Assembly: GCA_022410635.1 (NCBI GenBank)
Contig: JAJVDF010000234.1
Location: 62,001-126,000 of the forward strand
Length of the DNA: 64,000 nt
DNA from: Tretioscincus oriximinensis
Lineage: Eukaryota > Chordata > Lepidosauria > Squamata > Gymnophthalmidae
Direction of reading: 5' to 3'
The notes below the pieces were generated by a model, which worked only from the letters and a program-made list of their open reading frames with translations, ran no database searches and was not told the DNA's origin. Of this stretch, positions 4,669 to 64,000 are shown in pieces; within the stretch, counting starts at the first letter, position 1; each line of letters starts with the position of its first letter. Made by a program: the position numbers and the translations under genes.

Positions 4669-6775
4669 AAAATGCTGCTGTTCCATCTGGGATTTTTGTA
4701 TTCCTTTTTGATTAGGGGGCTGAAAACATCTTTTCCTTATCTACCATTAGTCTTGTTTGGGTTCTTGTGTATAATCACTGTTTTTTTCCTTACCAGAGTG
4801 TGATTTATTTTTTCCATTTAAATTGGCATACTTAGAATTAGTGGACACTTCCTGTATGCATGTACAGACCATCTCAACACAAAATAAAGTGTTACCCTGA
4901 AGATGGTGAGAAATTCTGCCTCTGTTAGTGATTTTTTTTAACATTCTGAGGATGAATATGTGAATGCATTGGTTAAAGCTGGCTTTTTGCCTGGTCCAAA
5001 GGGAAGCTAGTTTGCACTGTTCAGTTGTTTTTTTGAGTGCATTTATTACTGCACTCCGTATAGTAGAGTTCATATGGTATGATGGATCCATTCTATTTGA
5101 GCTATGCCCTTGATTCGTACAAAAGACTTTATGTGCTGTAGCACACAGGGTTCTTGTTATGGATGGAGGAACCTGTTTTAGATCTCTCTTGAGCCGTGAA
5201 GATTGGTCAATGGCTCTGGGTTAGTAACTGTTTTTCAATCTAACCTCTGTTTCTTTGGTACAAAAGTGTTTAAATTGGGGCAAATTATACTATTTGGAGA
5301 AAAAAATCTTGATCTAGATAAAAACAAAAACAAAAANGACCTCACTGATGTTATCTAAGGATGCAGGACTATTTTGGACAGGTCAACCATGAACAAGTTA
5401 ATTCAACAGACTCTGTAGCAAAGAATCCATGGCAGAACCTAACGTGCACAATTTGTGATAAGTTCCTCATTCAAAAACAATTCAAGAAAACATAATTTGT
5501 ATCAATATCCTTCCCTCTGATCATTGGGTCCTAATTANCAAGCAGCAGCTTTTAGGCATTACTTCGTGTCATAGCATTAATACAGAATAAAAAGCTGAAA
5601 CAAAATTTTCTGTGGTGATGACTCCATTAAGACATTCCTTTTTTTGAACAATGGACTTCATGGTAGTGTTGCTTCTATTTAAAGCAAGGATTTTGATCTT
5701 GGCTTTGATCTAAAGCTTTTGATCTTGAAAGAAGGTTATTGTGGCCAATAAAGAGAGNCAGAGCAGTGTCCTTTAAAAACCCAAAGCAGTAAAGTTAAAG
5801 AGGTGGTCCGGATTTAGTTAAGCAGTCGTTTGACATACGTTTATGCTGTGACATCTGTTTATGAATACAACCAATTGTGTGTTAGGGAAAGTTAACTTTG
5901 ATATATCAACATTTTACTTTGCAGAAGCATAGATTTTTCTTTTGACCTTTCCAAGGAATTTATAAGGCATGCACATACATTTAAATATGTCAGGTATATT
6001 TATTCTGCAGGTACCAGTAATTTAGTTTTTCATGTGAAAACAAATCAGGAACGTTATGCTAACTTTTCAAAATTGTATGTGTCCAGTGATTTCCAATAGC
6101 TTTGAAGTTGTGCTCAATATATTTGTTTAGCATGTTTTCCTACAGCAGTCTGATGTTCATGGTTACTGCCCCCACTCATAGGTTTACTCTGAAGCAAGCA
6201 TACAAAGGCTGGATGCTTTCAGGCCAAGCTCAAAGCTTTGCTGGACTCTGTGATAGAGGAGTCAGCTGTGGAATGCCACATGACTAATAGAAATGGCAGG
6301 ATTCCAGTTGCAAAAAGCAAACTTAAGGCTTGCTTTAAAATCTCCAAGGGATTCATCTGATACTGGCTTGGAGTCCATAAAGGTCATTTGGAGCTATTGA
6401 AAGAAAGAAAGGTTTAAATGCTTGATCACGTAATATATCAGTAGCGATAACTCTGTTAGAAGGGTTACTAAAAATACTTTTAATTGAAACTGAGGTTGGT
6501 TCTAGACAGAAAACAAAGATCCTAATATAAAATGAAACAATATACAAATCATTATTGCGGGTTTCTGCTCTTCCACATTCTTTCTTTTCCAGTATTTTAT
6601 CTTCAGTGTTCACAAAGCTATTTAGATGTACTTTTGATAAAACACTCTTTCACACACACAGACTTTGCAAAGTGTCCAAAGTAAGGAGGTAGAAGATATG
6701 GAACGACTTAAAACTGTTTAATTCGCGCTGTGCACATTTTTCCATGTGCGCATTGCAAAACCTACAACCTGACAT
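4669..6775. other. Upstream intergenic sequence
   Basis: AT-rich sequence between the CR1 fragment and the CpG island. No repeat or exon recognised with confidence. Isolated Ns lie at 5337, 5538 and 5758. Distal regulatory sites of the gene starting near 7.6 kb could lie here, but none can be shown. Confidence 0.4.
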
Positions 6776-7488
6776 GGAGTTCCGGGGGAGGGGAGCCAGT
6801 GACCGCGTTTTTACGCAAAGCGACCCAGCGTCGTTTTCATGCTGAAATGGTGACGTTCGCCGTGACCACGGAGGGCGCAGAAGCTCAAAGCGCCCCCCAT
6901 GCCTTGGGCGATGGGGGAACAAAGCCCCTCCGCCTGGCTGGGGCTGGGTTGTTGTGCCCTTAAGGCAGCAAGCCCCGCCTCCCCGCCTCTGATCCGGGCG
7001 CCTGGGAGGGAAGCTGCGAGGAGGAACACGAGGATGGAAAAGGCGGCGGGGGCGCCGGGGACCCCTTGGCTTTCCTTCGTTTCCTAAGAGGGGCGGCGGC
7101 GTGGCTGCCCAAGGAGGGAGGCTCCCAATCCTCCGGCACGACGGGACTGGCTCCAGCTCGCACGCAGCCCTTTGGATGGAGCGGGGGCGCCAGTCAGTAA
7201 AGCCGAGCAGCCTTCGCCAGGAGCCCTGCCGCCGCCTCTCTCGCTCCCTGCACGCCCTTCTTCAGCTCAGCTGTGGCACCCCAGAGACCGGGGAAGTTAG
7301 TGCGTCCCAGGCAAGGCACCGTCTCTTTCCTTTGCTCCGAATGCGAAGAGGACCAGAGAACCCGGGAAGGGCTAGCAAGGCCGGGGCCCCGGGTTTGGGT
7401 TTTGGTGGCGCAAAGAGTGGAACTTTTGCAGCAGCCGGACGCCTGCGGAGGAAGCCCGCGGAAGATACGCGCGCGCCATGGGGGGGGG

Positions 7489-7523
7489 NNNNNNNNNNNN
7501 NNNNNNNNNNNNNNNNNNNNNNN
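7489..7523. other. Assembly gap (35 N)
   Basis: A run of N follows CGCGCGCCATGGGGGGGG. The break sits in a G-rich part of the CpG island, so the true length is unknown. Any reading frame crossing it, including one opened by the ATG at 7479, is uncertain. Confidence 0.95.
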
Positions 7524-16458: not shown

Positions 16459-16629
16459 CCAAAAGCTTATATTCTATCTTCCCCACCAAGCTGTGGTGGT
16501 TCCCATTTATCTAGTTGCAGTCAGTTGAAGGCTAGTAGAAGGTGCTCACCCCTCCCCACGACACAGGGCCTTGAAACCCCATTTTTCAGATAAGAGTCCG
16601 TCTCCTTAGTGACTGCGCCATTCGTGCCT
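16459..16629 (-). repeat. tRNA-derived SINE, copy 3
   Basis: On the minus strand it starts GGCACGAATGGCGCAGTCACTAAGG (A-box-like TGGCGCAGT), has a B-box-like GGTTTCAAGGCCC, and ends in the shared body GGTGGGGAAGATAGAATATAAGC. The GGGAACCACCACAGC segment matches copy 5 at 54871. It is the best preserved head of the family in the window. Confidence 0.75.
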
Positions 16630-32834: not shown

Positions 32835-33886
32835 TAAATTGCCGAGGTGAATAGTGAAGTAGCCAAGTTTGCTGACGACACTAAACTGTTCAGGGTAGTG
32901 AAAACTGAAAATGATTGTAAGGCACTCCAGAGTGATCTATTGAAATTGGGTGAGTGGGCATCTAAGTGGCAAATGCACTTCAATCTAAGCAAGTGCAAGG
33001 TCATGCACATTGGGGCAAAGAACCCCAACTACTCCTACCACCTGATGGAAACCAAGCTTTCTGTGACCAAGCAAGAAAAGGATCTTGGGGTGCTGGTGAA
33101 CAATTCAATGAAAATGTCAACCCAGTGTGCAGCAGCAGCAAAAAAGGCAAATTCCCTGTTGGGTATAATTAGGAAAGGAATCGAAAACAAGTCAGCAAAT
33201 GTTGTTTTGCCTCTTTATAAATCTGTGGTGAGGCCACATTTGGAATACTGTGTTCAATTCTGGTCACCACATCTCAAGAGGGATATTTTGGAACTGGAGA
33301 AGGTGCAGAAAAGGGCAACAAAAATGATCAAGGGTCTGGAGCACCTCCCTTACGAAGTCAGGCTGCAACGTCTGGGCCTCCTCAGCCTCGAAAGGTGACA
33401 TTTGAGAGGTGATCTGATTGAAGTGTACAAAATCATGCATGGGATGGGCAGGGTGAACAGAGAAAAATGTTTTCTCTATCACACAACACAAGGACCAGAG
33501 GGCACTCCTTGAAACTGATGGGAAGAAAAGTGAGAACAGACAAAGGAAAGTATTTTTTCACCCAGAGGGTCATCGGCCTGTGGAATTTACTTCCTGAAGA
33601 GGTAGTGGTAGCTAACAGCTTGGATAGTTTCAAGACAGGACTAGACAGATTTATGGATACCAATGGTATAAATGGATACTAGGATGGATGTCTGGATGTT
33701 GCCTCTGGGATGGAGCAACAGACAAGACTCCTGAGATACCATTTGCAGGAAGTCATGAAAAGGTGCATATTATGCTTCCTCTGTTCGGACTGCCCAGTTG
33801 CATCTGGCGGGCCTCTGTGTGACACAGAATGCTGGCCTTGATGGGCTGTGGCCTGATCCAGTATGGCTCTTATGTTCTTATGTTAG
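32835..33886 (+). mobile_element. CR1 LINE, 5'-truncated, RT C-terminus and 3' UTR
   Basis: An open stretch (32847-33398) encodes the C-terminal part of CR1 reverse transcriptase. It has the catalytic motif FADDTKLF near residue 8, the thumb-like block WASKWQMHFNLSKCKVMHIG (residues 43-62), and the CR1 block [20 protein letters not shown]. An in-frame TGA follows ...LSLER and a frameshift precedes the last segment (NLLPEEVVVANSLDSFK, 33467-33682 frame). The 3' UTR ends GATGGGCTGTGGCCTGATCC and TTATGTTCTTATG, the CR1 terminus. Full-length CR1 is several kb, so most of the 5' part is missing. The stop and frameshift show it is dead. It is a good reference for the other CR1 pieces in this window. 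Confidence 0.9.
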
Positions 33887-53064: not shown

Positions 53065-54776
53065 ATAAGCCAATGAATAAATTTGATATTATACATTAGT
53101 TAAAACAGTTATCTGCCTTTGGAGAGAGAGTGTTTTCTCAGGCAAATGTCAGTATAAATTTAGTATCAAGAACAGTTCTGTTGGATTGAATTTGGTAATT
53201 TTGTCCTTCAACTAGCATAATGGGACAGGAACATTCTCATTTTAAATAACCATGTCTCCAGTTATAACATTAAAAATACCTATATTATCATTAAATAGAT
53301 AACCATCATGCATCAGTGGGATTTTCATCATGGGTAATCTTTGCATTGCAAAGAACTAACATACTTTTTCATTAACTTTGGTTTTTAAAGTCACTTAATT
53401 CAGATTTGACTTTTAAAGACTCTAATTAGAGATCTCTCACAAGTCTCTGAGACTTTTTAGTAAGTTTGATGGGGCAAGGTCAGGGCAGTGATGGGGCAAG
53501 GTCAGGGCAGTGATTTTCTTAGAAGAGTCCAAGGAAGAAACAATGTTTTCACAATTATGTGGTAGAACCTTCACCTGTTCTATGCTGCAACAAATGAGTT
53601 TAGCATGGATAGAAAGCTTTTTCACATTGTGATTCCAGATGATTCCACTGCCTTTCAAGAGCTGTAATTGAACCTGTTTATTTGAAGTGAACGACTTGTG
53701 AGAATATTGTGATCTAAATTATTTTTTAAATGTTGGCATTCTGCCTAAAAGCATTTTGAATACTGTTATAAACACACACACGCCCACACGCACAGATATG
53801 CACACACAGTGTTTGTTGAGGAGAAAAACAAAACAAAAAGTAAAATTACAAATAATTTCTGAATATATATGTCTCATCTTCATCCACCCTCATTCCAGCA
53901 ATTGAGTGCAATGTCCTCCATCAGCCAGAGGAGGCTTTGATTACTTCTTTCTGCTTAATCTTGGTTTTAGCTTTTGCTCATGATCCTAATATTGTACAAC
54001 AACAACATTTATTCTTCAAACATGTTCTTTTTTCTGATGACAAGGGTTGAGGTATCTCTGTGTTGTCTTCCTTATAGATTCCATAGGTTTCTTGCTCGCA
54101 CATACCCCTTCATGGATTCTGGGATAAGCTTTTGTCTGTTGAATCATTTTCTCCACATGAAGAAGGGGCAATTTGTTCCGACTGAAATGATCTGAGTTTT
54201 TTAATAGGTCACTTCACTCATTGGTTGCAAGGATGTCTCGACTCCCTAGACTTTACTTTTGATACTTTAGAACTGCCTAAGATTCTTTATTATACTGTGT
54301 TCAGTCTGGTTTATTGCCTTTTGGGCCATTTTTCTATTCCTGTGAAAGGGACTATGAATGAGAGCTAAAAAGCAAAATGCACAGCCTTCATGTTGATGTG
54401 ATTTGTTCTGTTGGGTCAAATTGTTCAGCCAGTTTGGCTATCTAAACCACACCAATGTGTTTTGGTGTAATCTGAACTGCGTCAATTAATTTCAGATAGC
54501 TAAATTGGCTGAAACCAGCCTGGAGAGATTGACCCTTGATTGAAAGCAAAGATTTATTACACCAAGCCTTGTTTTTGCTCTCTAGCTTGGCCTACATCTG
54601 GAAAGCATAATAATGGAAGTTTTAAAGAAAAGGGGTCTTGTCCACTGCTTTTGTCTCCTCTTTGTTCCAACAGTTCTTATACCATTTCTTGTGGTTTCCA
54701 GTCAAGTATCCCATGATGGTAATGTCTAAGGTTGTTATTGTTAATCATCTGTCAAATATATTAATGGAAAAAGAGT
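53065..54776. other. Anonymous sequence with a 22-bp tandem duplication
   Basis: GATGGGGCAAGGTCAGGGCAG(T) occurs twice in tandem at 53468-53511, exact. (CA)n at 53773-53810. The rest has no recognised feature. Confidence 0.4.
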
Positions 54777-54870
54777 AAACAGGTATCCAGCATCAGTCCA
54801 TGAAATGCTGAAAGCTGAATCACTCAGATGCCAACAGACTGCTGGTTGCATGATGGGCTGAAACATGAAA
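54777..54870. repeat. Left member of 7.4-kb inverted repeat pair
   Basis: From TAAACAGGTATCCAGCATCA to GGGCTGAAACATGAAA it matches the reverse complement of 62112-62207 with about three mismatches in 95 bp. The identity stops at a TA on the outer side. Confidence 0.8.
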
Positions 54871-55088
54871 AGGCTTACATTTGATCTTCCCCACTAGGTT
54901 GTGGTGGTTCCCATGTATCTACTTGCATTCAGTTGCAATTTCTTGCAATTCTTGCTTTTGAATAGCTGGGTTGTCTAGAGCTACAGGCTAGTGGAAGGTA
55001 CTCACCCCTCCCCATGTCCAACACAGGGCTTCCAAACCCCATCTCCCAGATGAGAGATGGATTCCTTAGCAACTGAGCTATCCTGGGT
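54871..55088 (-). repeat. tRNA-derived SINE, copy 5
   Basis: On the minus strand: head CCAGGATAGCTCAGTTGCTAAGG, B-box-like GGTTTGGAAGCCC, body TAGCTGACTTG-like and GGGAACCACCACAACCTAGT, end GGGGAAGATCAAATGTAAGC. It starts directly at the inner edge of the inverted repeat. Confidence 0.75.
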
Positions 55089-55269
55089 TTTTTTGTTTTT
55101 GTTTTTTAGTGGGCTGGAGACTTGTAATTAAAAGAAAATGAACTAGTTAGCAGTACCAGGGAATTAAAAATAAATAGAAAAAAGAAAACAGCCCTTCCCA
55201 TTTTTTTTTAAAAAAGCATTAGTTGTTTCAGTGATAAAAATCTTGGCATATGCATTTCTCTCTCTAATT

Positions 55270-55814
55270 CAGCGGTTCTCAACCTGTGGGTTGGAACCCT
55301 GGTGGGGATCGAACGACCAAAACACAGGGGTCACCTAAAGCCATGTTTCCAATGGCTTTAACTGCTAAAGGATGCTCCCGGATGTCAGCGCTGGCCACGG
55401 CGATCTATCACACGTGATCGCGGTCCGCATGCCCACACTCAACATGGTGGCCACGGCCTCAGTGCCGGCGCTGATGGTTTTGGTGGCTCTGGGCGTTGGA
55501 CTGATCCTTGTGCTCCGCAGGCTGATGAGCAGGTGCGTCCGTGCTGTGGGATCGGCGCTGATATGGGGCAAGACGGTGCTGATCACCGGGGCCAACTGCG
55601 GGATCGGCAAGGCCACGGTGGCCGAGCTGCTGAGACTATGTTTAAATTATGTTTGATTTGTAGCAATGAAAATACATAATGCATATCAGGTATTTACATT
55701 CCGAATCATACGTGTAGCAAAATTACAGTTTTGAAAGAGACACCAAAATTGGGTCACCACAACATGAGGAACTATATTGTGGGGTCATGGCATTAGAAAG
55801 GTTGAGAACCACTG
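55270..55814. mobile_element. SPIN-like hAT element carrying a captured gene fragment
   Basis: Ends CAGCGGTTCTCAACCTGTGG and, inverted, CAGTGGTTCTCAACCTTTCT form hAT terminal inverted repeats. The flanks CTCTAATT (55262-55269) and CTTTAATT (55815-55822) form an 8-bp target duplication with one change. Subterminal sequence (GATCGAACGACC, ACAGGGGTCACCTAAAG, GTAGCAAAATTACAGTTTTG, GGGTCACCACAACATGAGGA) matches the SPIN family as recalled, a hAT spread by horizontal transfer among tetrapods including squamates. There is no transposase: the middle (about 55345-55640) is a GC-rich retinol dehydrogenase fragment. It would depend on an autonomous SPIN copy elsewhere. Confidence 0.88.
55444..55638 (+). 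pseudogene. RDH14-like: Captured retinol dehydrogenase 14-like exon fragment
   Basis: The open frame encodes an N-terminal hydrophobic anchor (PALMVLVALGVGLILVL, about residues 7-23) and an SDR cofactor-binding start: GKTVLITGANCGIGKATVAE then LLRL. TGANCGIG is the TGxxxGxG Rossmann motif. The residues around it fit RDH14 better than RDH11-13 by recall. It stops after LLRL, where a host gene would continue with the next Rossmann strand; SPIN sequence follows at about 55640. The Asn/Ser/Tyr/Lys catalytic residues are absent, so it cannot be an enzyme. The frame is open from 55372 to 55656, includes possible upstream 5' UTR, and is much richer in GC and CpG than its surroundings. Origin by capture into the hAT element is inferred from position. 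Confidence 0.8.
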
Positions 55815-55822
55815 CTTTAATT

Positions 55823-61380: not shown

Positions 61381-62111
61381 ATTGGTTACAGATATGACTA
61401 AGAATATTCACAAACAGCAGAGTGAATGTACTTGAGGAAGCAAATATATAATTTTTTAAAGGGATACATATCCAAGCAACTATATTGTAGAATCATAGTT
61501 GCTAAGCATAGAAATTAGAACAGTCAGCAAGCTAAATAATACATTCCAGAAACATATCAAAGGATACTGGTTCACCATGTTTTCTTGTCACTGTCTTTTA
61601 TTGGAACTATAGTTAGGATAATAGTAATTGCATAGATGTTATTTGGACTGGCAGTTGCAATCATGTTGTATAATGCACCTTATAATGTGACATTTTTTTA
61701 TACAAGCCTATGCACAAATGTGTCAAGATCTTTTTCATAAACGCTTCTGTGATAGTTGAAGGCCCAAGTTATAACAAACAGAACTTTGCATATTGATCTT
61801 TACCTTAATGAGATGTAACCCTGAAAATCTTGTTACTGATTTGATACCTTTTGATTTTATTATGATAATAACATTATAATAATAAGCCACCTTGGAAGTT
61901 CACTTATAAAAGAAAGATGGAATATAGAGACGTTTTGATATCCTATTTCTCATATTTGTTGTATGAGTAGTGGTCGTCTATATATGCCAGAGAGAAGAGT
62001 AGGTAGTCTCTGGAGTAGCAAGCAGAAGAACATACTGATTGTTTTGAACATCTGGAGATATGCCACTGGGTTTATTGCAGGGCATCTAGTTCCAGACAGT
62101 TGAAAACTGTT
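61381..62111. other. Anonymous sequence
   Basis: Contains a short LINE-tail-like piece at 61880-61925 (AAGCCACCTTGGAAGTTCAC, then AAAGATGGAATATAGA). Otherwise nothing recognised. Confidence 0.35.
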
Positions 62112-62207
62112 TCATGTTTCAGCCCATCGTGCAACCAGCAGTCTGTTGGCATCTGAGTGATTCAGCTTTCAGCATTTCATGAATTGATGCTGGATACCTG
62201 TTTATTT
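62112..62207. repeat. Right member of 7.4-kb inverted repeat pair
   Basis: TTTCATGTTTCAGCCCATCG to TGGATACCTGTTTA is the reverse complement of 54777-54870 with about three differences. Confidence 0.8.
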
Positions 62208-62356: not shown

Positions 62357-64000
62357 AGAATCATAGAGTTGGAAGGGACCTCCAGGGTCATCAGGTCCAA
62401 CCCCCTGCTCGATGCAGGATTCATTAAGCCATCCCAGACAGATGACTGTCCAGTCTCTGTTTGAAGACTTCCAGGGAAGGCGAACTCACCACACCATGTG
62501 GCAAACTGTTCCACTGGTTTATCACCCTGACTGTTAGGAAGTTTTTTTCTGATATCTAATCTGAATCTACTCCCTTGTAGTTTCATTCCATTGTTTCTAG
62601 TCCTTCCATGTGCTAATGAGAACAGTGCTGATCCCTGTGCTCTGTGACAGCCCCTCAGGTATTTGTAGACAGCTATCAGGTCTCCTCTCAGTCTTCTCTT
62701 TTGTAGACTAAACATCCCCAGATCCTTTAACCGTTCCTCATAGGACATAGTTTCCAGACCACTCACCATCCTTGTAACTCTCTTTTGTACTTGCTCTAGT
62801 TTATCAATGTCCTTTTTAAATTGGGGCTCCCAGAACTGAACACAGTATTCCAAGTGTGGTCGTACCAAAGTACAGTAGAGAGGAATAATTACTTCACGTG
62901 AGCGAGATTCTATGCCCCTCTTGAATACATCCCAGGATTGTGTTTGCCTTTTTTGCAGCTGCTTCACACTGTTGATTCATGTTTAGTCTGTGATCTACCA
63001 AAACACCCAGGTCCTTCTCACCTGTGCTGCTGCTCAGACATATTCCTCCCATTCTATATCTTTTTGAATCCTATCTCTATCTTGTTTAGTATTAGCAACA
63101 CCACCTAGTTTTGTGTCATCAGCAAATTTGATAAGTTTTCCTTCAATTCCTTCATCTAGATCATTTATAAATATGTTAAATAGCACTGGGCCTAGGACAG
63201 ACCCTTGTGGTATCCCACTTGAAACATTCTTCCAATTGGATGTGCAACCATTTATTATCACTCTTTGAGTACGATCACTAAGCCAGTTTTCAATCCATCT
63301 AACTGTTGTTTTGTCAATCCCATACTTGACCATTTTTTCAATAAGGATGGAATGAGATACTTTGCCAAACGCTTTACTGAAGTCAAGATATACCACATCT
63401 ACTGTATTTCCCTGATCAACCCATTTGGTAATTCTATCATAGAAGGAAATTAGATTAGTTTGGCATGACTTGTTTGTTACAAATCCATGTTGGCTATGAT
63501 TAATTAATGCATTCCTATCCCAGTGCTGGCATACATGCTGCTTTATAACTTGTTCTAGGAGTTTTCCTGGTATTGAAGTCAGACTCACAGGCCTGTAGTT
63601 TCCCGGTTCCACCTTTTTACCCTTTTTGAAGATAGGGACAACATTTGCCCTTCTCCATTCTACTGGGACTTCTCCTGTTGTCCATGAATTTTCAAAGATC
63701 ACTGCAAGTGGTTCTGCTATTACTTCTGCTAGTTCCTTCAGTACCCTGGGATGTAGTTCATCTGGGCCTGGTGATTTGAATTCATTTAAATTAGCTAAGA
63801 GTTCCCTCACCTTTTCTCTGTCTATTAAGTGTTTTGATTCTTTTGTTCCTTCAATAGCAGAATGAAGGCCAGCTGTTGTTGTATGTCCTTTTTCAGAAAA
63901 AAACAGTTGCAAAATAAGTGTTCAGAAGTTCAGCTTTCTCAGTATCATTTTTGATCATTTCACCATTTTCCCTCTGTAGAACTCCTATAGCATCTTTAGC
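62357..64000 (-). mobile_element. CR1 LINE, RT half and 3' UTR, continues past window
   Basis: The 3' end lies at 62357 (reverse of GGTTGGACCTGATGACCCTGG). The minus-strand frame 63912-63034 (292 codons) covers the RT fingers and palm: NEFKSPGPDELHPRVLKELA, EWRRANVVPIFKKGKKVEPG, NYRPVSLTSIPGKLLEQVI, HGFVTNKSCQTNLISFYD, VDVVYLDFSKAFGKVSH, SGIPQGSVLGPVLFNIFIND and the catalytic FADDTK. A one-base indel in a T run at about 63893-63901 separates it from the upstream frame. The thumb segment with KWQM-F-KCKVMHIG is missing relative to the CR1 at 32835 (sequence jumps from RIQKDIEW to GGICLSSSTGEKDLG). The frame 62967-62218 carries [20 protein letters not shown]. Its 5' half lies beyond the window. 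Confidence 0.9.

Follow-up and report, generated by a model that had tools for sequence, protein, structure and literature searches.

The whole stretch of DNA that was analysed, 64,000 nucleotides of the Tretioscincus oriximinensis genome (the window), contains a hAT element at 55270-55814 with SPIN-like ends and, between them, the 5' portion of a gene resembling RDH14. The locus raises the questions of how a piece of a retinol dehydrogenase gene came to lie inside a DNA transposon, whether the two move as a unit, and from which genome the gene piece was taken. An initial annotation had read the locus as a SPIN-type transposon with a captured dehydrogenase exon, and had proposed that such a composite could spread within the genome or even between species.

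Structure of the element in the window

The features of the element are collected in Table 1. The two TIR arms of 21 nt (55265-55285 and 55799-55819) are 86% complementary, and the end motif CAGNGGTTCTCAACCTGTGG, with up to three mismatches allowed, occurs at two sites in the window, both at the ends of the element (0.00 expected from 100 shuffles). The flanks form an 8-bp target duplication that matches in seven positions, with a central TA on both sides. Comparable TIR pairs with flanks matching in at least 7/8 positions were seen once more in the window and in one of 20 Markov resamples, so the TIR and the duplication are not overwhelming by themselves; the similarity to SPIN and the other copies are. 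The ends resemble a provisional SPIN consensus and are putatively assigned to SPIN. Identity to this consensus is 81% for the left end (score 47, maximum among 500 random stretches 16.5) and 85% for the right end (score 117, maximum among 500 random stretches 18). The SPIN-type hAT ends named in the initial annotation are thus supported by the TIRs, by the likeness to the provisional consensus and by other copies.

Table 1. Features of the SPIN-like composite element and its flanks in the window
Feature	Position	Strand	Remarks
Left target site duplication CTCTAATT	55262..55269	.	7/8 vs 55815-55822, nnnTAnnn
SPIN-like 5' end (TIR and subterminal block)	55270..55344	+	61/75 identical to provisional SPIN consensus
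9-bp perfect hairpin at inner edge of 5' block	55336..55360	+	From folding; also in family majority sequence
Putative captured 5' flank / 5' UTR, CpG-rich	55361..55443	+	In family majority sequence
Start of captured RDH14-like exon 1 (64 codons, including membrane anchor and TGANCGIG)	55444..55634	+	Ends abruptly at about 55634/55635
SPIN-like 3' end, finishing in inverted TIR	55635..55814	+	153/180 identical to provisional SPIN consensus
Right target site duplication CTTTAATT	55815..55822	.	7/8 vs left copy

The SPIN-like 5' block is also present in 30 aligned elements elsewhere in the host genome, and the true boundary between SPIN and captured DNA lies inside the hairpin at its inner edge or just past it. 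The insert has a GC content of 63% and a CpG observed/expected ratio of 0.84 (1.03 for 55345-55443), compared with 0.26 for the whole window.

The frame that opens with the ATG at 55444 comprises 70 codons. When aligned with provisional sequences of the human paralogues, it scores 127 with RDH14, 86 with RDH13, 75 with RDH11 and 73 with RDH12, and shuffles of RDH14 score at most 44. The short window frame gave no protein match at E 10 in a collection that includes vertebrate RDH14, and the Pfam domain adh_short is below cut-off in the window copy (E 0.0035). In the longer copy L018 the same domain is found with E 1.8e-10 and 41 bits (cut-off 26.6). The GC-rich insert with an RDH14-like exon 1, as named in the initial annotation, is upheld by these scores.

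The window also contains other repeats and one possible promoter. Copies of a repeat that resembles a tRNA-derived SINE are located on the minus strand at 54776-55105 (beside the element), 16461-16527 and 62101-62204. Two reverse transcriptase remnants, both presumably CR1-like, are found at 63037-63921 on the minus strand (RVT_1 E 4.4e-29, above cut-off) and at 32838-33395 on the plus strand (RVT_1 E 3.7e-4, below cut-off). A CpG island at 6701-7500 (observed/expected 0.63-0.87), with a run of N from 7489, may mark a host promoter.

Copies in the host genome

The host genome (1.54 Gb in 2455 contigs) was searched with the window element and with the 3'-terminal half of exon 1. Both searches combined show that the composite is multicopy, with at least 64 distinct loci on 61 contigs. 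At 58 of these a SPIN end was seen and six are known as exon matches only; the 58 comprise 48 that were analysed for ends and 10 more, known by alignment alone, in which the SPIN 5' end is present. Whether the SPIN ends and the dehydrogenase segment occur together elsewhere had been proposed as a check, and the answer is positive.

The search with the window element yielded 30 loci from the 40 copies scored out of 1587 candidates (window included). All 40 start within five bases of the SPIN 5' end, and the matches extend at least to query base 316 of the approximately 365 that precede the break in the window copy, so that they cover the RDH segment wholly or for the greater part. The exon-1 search had 49 candidates, of which 40 were scored (41 rows). 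Thirty loci were fetched, 11 further rows lying outside them, and both SPIN ends were found in 29 of the 30 (three with a weak 5' score), while L061 has the SPIN 5' end only.

The target duplications of 48 elements match in 8/8 positions in 21, 7/8 in 13, 6/8 in two and fewer in 12. The 8-bp duplication claimed for the window (7/8) therefore has its counterpart in the family, with 34 of 48 elements at 7/8 or 8/8. Of these 34 good duplications, 33 have a central TA on one side or both, and 32 are distinct. One further copy, L002, has a joint identical to that of the window copy at a different target site.

When as many as two mismatches are allowed, a 19-mer placed over the captured start codon has 823 sites in the genome (435+388), compared with three sites (3+0) for the reversed-pattern control. 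Eight sites, hand-picked from the listed exact matches, all lie between SPIN ends in elements of 257-473 bp, four of them with a target duplication of 7/8 or better. All eight elements are short, with the captured start retained and little else, and we infer that most of the 823 sites are short derivatives too. Scans of viral and genome collections for SPIN motifs gave no matches, and a separate search for related loci found nothing.

The captured segment in longer copies

The composite is 436-1245 bp long in 30 elements, 1382 bp in L047 and 1834 bp in L068. In longer copies the captured DNA runs from the 5' flank through exon 1 and its splice donor into an intron. Their frame has about 118 codons and ends near ...RELDLASLRSVHRFCQQVLQ in single copies (LCSMH in the computed majority), and the family majority frame is open over all 118. 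The frame is followed by GTACACC and then by G-rich repeats, which are read as the splice donor and the start of the intron, and the captured exon 1 finishes at the same point, with the same donor position, as exon 1 of the host RDH14. In the window copy the SPIN 3' block is joined after codon 64 of the exon; this copy is an internally deleted derivative of the longer composite. Origin as a retrocopy was considered and rejected, since the captured piece keeps its 5' end and extends beyond the donor of exon 1 into G-rich DNA that resembles an intron.

In L003, L005, L008, L015 and L029, codon 64 is followed by a different GC-rich piece that contains TGACGTCA or a variant of it. This piece begins CGTGTGTCCGGCGCTTGCTGACGTCATC, also with variants, and part of it is present in L028. 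It may be the 5' end of a second captured gene.

Five of the 30 elements (L013, L017, L021, L026 and L030) run on into a sequence that resembles a hAT transposase towards its C-terminus. L068 has a longer transposase-like stretch at 1651-2708, in pieces, downstream of the captured exon and in the same orientation. The downstream frames are putative transposase, and a Pfam search with the four transposase-like pieces of L068 gave nothing significant. The layout of L068 suggests that the captured promoter region was formerly upstream of a transposase. As a bolder extension, it is possible that the captured CpG-rich promoter and exon formerly drove a downstream transposase, of which L068 would hold the remnant.

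Neutrality and age of the copies

Divergence from the majority sequence outside CpG was measured in 30 copies. It amounts to 2.6% for the SPIN part and 3.2% for the UTR, and at codon positions 1, 2 and 3 to 3.1, 2.3 and 2.7%. The SPIN ends, the UTR and the exon share one history and the copies drift neutrally; the captured frame has no sign of selection across the 30 copies. The first 64 codons are open in 22 of the 30, which fits a young family. The true divergence is higher than measured because these 30 copies are the best-scoring ones, so that the estimate is biased low.

The host RDH14 gene and the captured exon

The host genome has a single RDH14-grade exon 2 (C13:4167605), 87% identical to the provisional human query, and the 13 other hits reach at most 56%. 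Exon 1 of the host RDH14 is located at L043:3011-3427. The host protein is of the squamate type and its nearest listed relative is that of Tiliqua (92%).

The captured exon and the host exon 1 are 73% (105/143) and 75% (47/63) identical in two alignable blocks, and 57 of 77 residues are identical in the SDR part. The differences over 77 codons, counted on the majority of 13 copies, are distributed as 19/9/36 by codon position, and dN is 0.195 and dS 1.02, giving a dN/dS of 0.19. This third-position bias and the low dN/dS imply that the captured and host genes diverged mainly while functional and not by decay in the transposon. Judged by these comparisons, the donor gene is not the host's own RDH14. 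A comparison with the host RDH14 exon 1 had been proposed in the initial annotation; the captured exon is not close to it, with about 73% identity where alignable, and groups with frogs (see below). Neither a parental copy of at least 90% identity nor a SPIN-free better match was found among the 30 loci examined, and the parent RDH14 gene was not found within the 64-kb window.

Probable affinity with frogs

Among the best 120 of 7988 relatives, the captured exon scores best with frogs, 13 named frogs occupying 13 of the top 14 places and an unnamed record the remaining one. The captured exon and the frogs are joined, apart from the squamates, in every tree that was constructed, on alignments of only 111-130 columns and with a comparison set that includes no salamander, caecilian or ray-finned fish. 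Support is 100/99 in a tree of 48 rows, for which 46 of the 120 listed proteins were picked to span the groups. When six individual copies take the place of the consensus, with 29 listed proteins, the support is again 100/99 whether gappy columns are kept or removed, although in one of these trees the bootstrap was unsettled. Without coelacanth, the support is 100/98 for 28 rows (26 proteins, gap-poor columns) and 100/97 for 47 rows (45 proteins including all 13 frogs, with the computed majority).

AU tests on the 48 rows did not reject the captured exon with squamates (p 0.0905), with lepidosaurs (p 0.0626) or with amniotes (p 0.0517). Placement with squamates was rejected in the sets of 28 rows (p 0.0175) and 47 rows (p 0.0188); these sets are post hoc, as the long coelacanth row and the gappy columns were dropped after the first AU results, and they contain no outgroup. 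The 48-row and 28-row analyses, the scoring and the column analysis used a hand-assembled captured protein, in which residues 82, 107 and 109 are not those of the computed majority. The frog grouping and the rejection of squamates persist with the computed majority, and the six-copy trees are independent of the hand-assembled protein.

Identity of the captured protein is 0.67-0.74 to frogs, 0.69 to Sphenodon and 0.58-0.67 to squamates. Diagnostic columns are frog-like, squamate-like or neither in 10/3/6 cases at the 70% level, 6/2/2 at 80% and 3/2/1 at 90%. The captured exon has the short linker of the frog type, GGGLILV..RRLMS, ALMRGKT and GI in the glycine motif, and its end, RFCQQVLQ, is squamate-like. 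On this evidence the donor would be an amphibian or an unsampled non-squamate with a likelihood of about two in three. The idea of spread between species, put forward speculatively in the initial annotation, has gained real support from the frog grouping.

Origin of the composite

The best explanation, to which we assign a probability of roughly 0.7, is a high-copy non-autonomous SPIN-like (Buster-type hAT) family which has as its cargo the RDH14 5' end of an amphibian-like donor, entered this lineage horizontally and was then amplified. Capture and amplification are nearly certain, and an amphibian-like donor is likely but not proven. Horizontal entry is suggested by the phylogeny and by the search for a parent exon free of SPIN, which found none in the loci examined. 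It is also probable, and held a little less firmly, that a DNA transposon took part of a functional vertebrate gene, namely its promoter region, exon 1 and splice donor, from an amphibian to a squamate, where hundreds of copies followed.

The position of the captured exon in the trees is at odds with another explanation, unlikely on the whole, in which the multicopy composite is real and its exon derives from a squamate (host-lineage) RDH14 paralogue that was lost or is unassembled, with no horizontal passage. A paralogue would agree with the 48-row AU test, which does not reject squamates, with the squamate-like residues at the end of the exon and with the identity to Sphenodon, which overlaps the frog range. 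However, the host genome has one RDH14-grade exon 2, and all 30 fetched loci have SPIN ends (L061 the 5' end only). In addition, each squamate species appears once among the 120 listed relatives (90% clusters), and no second, frog-type RDH14 gene was found among them.

It is very improbable that the RDH14 of the host was captured long ago and drifted in the transposon lineage until it looked foreign, because neutral drift predicts stop codons and equal rates at the codon positions. The SPIN ends differ from the provisional SPIN consensus by 15-19%, so the lineage may be old, but the differences from the host gene fall mainly in third positions (19/9/36, dN/dS 0.19), the majority frame is open through 118 codons and the measured copies are only about 2.8% from the majority outside CpG.

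Two further explanations are refuted and can practically be dismissed. A single gap-filling event, in which a resident SPIN copy at the window locus was patched with RDH14 DNA, is the usual case among animal Pack-TIRs (PMC8277862), but it was dropped once the same composite was found at many loci with distinct target duplications. Contamination of the assembly with amphibian DNA, in favour of which nothing was found, disagrees with the spread of the loci over 61 contigs and with the flanking repeats. These are shared with the window in 20 of 29 other copies, and for the 30-kb surroundings of the squamate-type RDH14 gene the number is 18 of 29.

Under the favoured explanation of horizontal entry from an amphibian-like donor, a SPIN element in the donor genome would have exchanged some of its internal sequence for RDH14 DNA that reaches from the 5' flank across exon 1 and its splice donor into intron 1. 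The copying may have occurred by gap repair or template switching, as Tan et al. (PMC8277862) suggest for similar elements. The composite with both SPIN ends then transposed as a unit, probably mobilised in trans by SPIN transposase, and left the 8-bp duplications that are observed. Amplification led to many copies, hundreds by the 19-mer count, and repeated internal deletions trimmed the RDH14 part to the varied lengths of the analysed copies, of which the window copy is one. The exon is a neutral passenger, in line with the similar divergence of the codon positions in 30 copies. With a donor RDH14 that appears functional, is not the host's own and groups with frogs, the composite most likely arose in an amphibian, or else in a relative that was not sampled.

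Comparison with known systems

The TIR and subterminal sequences of the window family resemble the provisional SPIN consensus. SPIN is reported to have entered squamates horizontally (Pace et al. 2008; Gilbert et al. 2012), and the family described here would belong to the same element family. The difference is that the present family has the 5' end of a vertebrate gene as a standard component. To our knowledge no passenger gene is known on SPIN, and the open-licence literature, which does not include the main SPIN papers, gave no description of RDH14 as the cargo of a SPIN family. Gilbert et al. 2012 is cited in PMC11008031. The 8-bp duplications with a central TA are as in TcBuster, a hAT relative (PMC3499496). 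Internal-deletion derivatives are described in PMC3621081 for OC1, another horizontally moved element.

The composite is similar to Pack-TIRs, or more precisely Pack-hATs, in that a single TIR element encloses gene sequence, with an internal sequence within 100-5000 bp. In Tan et al. 2021 (PMC8277862), 370 Pack-TIRs are reported from 100 animal genomes and 208 of these are hAT, so that the initial view of gene capture by hAT elements as rarely reported in vertebrates cannot be kept in that form. Nearly all of those Pack-TIRs are, however, single-copy and only four cases are multicopy, among them frog CAPSL, a multicopy Pack-hAT with 5' UTR on three chromosomes. In contrast, at least 64 loci and 823 pattern sites were found here. 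For the pipeline of that study (PMC8277862), a unique parental copy with 90% identity or more had to be present in the genome concerned, whereas the host gene here is about 73% identical and none closer was found among the loci examined.

Frogs and squamates are also the pair of groups that exchanged mobile DNA in the case of the BovB retrotransposon, for which transfer from snakes to frogs is reported (PMC9007160). Here, on the other hand, the element is a DNA transposon with a gene fragment and the direction is apparently the opposite.

Conclusions

A vertebrate DNA transposon can bear the CpG-rich 5' end of a gene at high copy number, beyond the few-copy cases in animals (Tan et al.). The family is a concrete candidate for a piece of a vertebrate gene that moves between classes on a known horizontal traveller. 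It makes it possible to test transposon cargo as a route for the movement of genes between vertebrates, and also the effect of many imported promoter fragments on a recipient genome. If the favoured explanation is true, the 5' end of a vertebrate gene would have spread horizontally as the cargo of a transposon.
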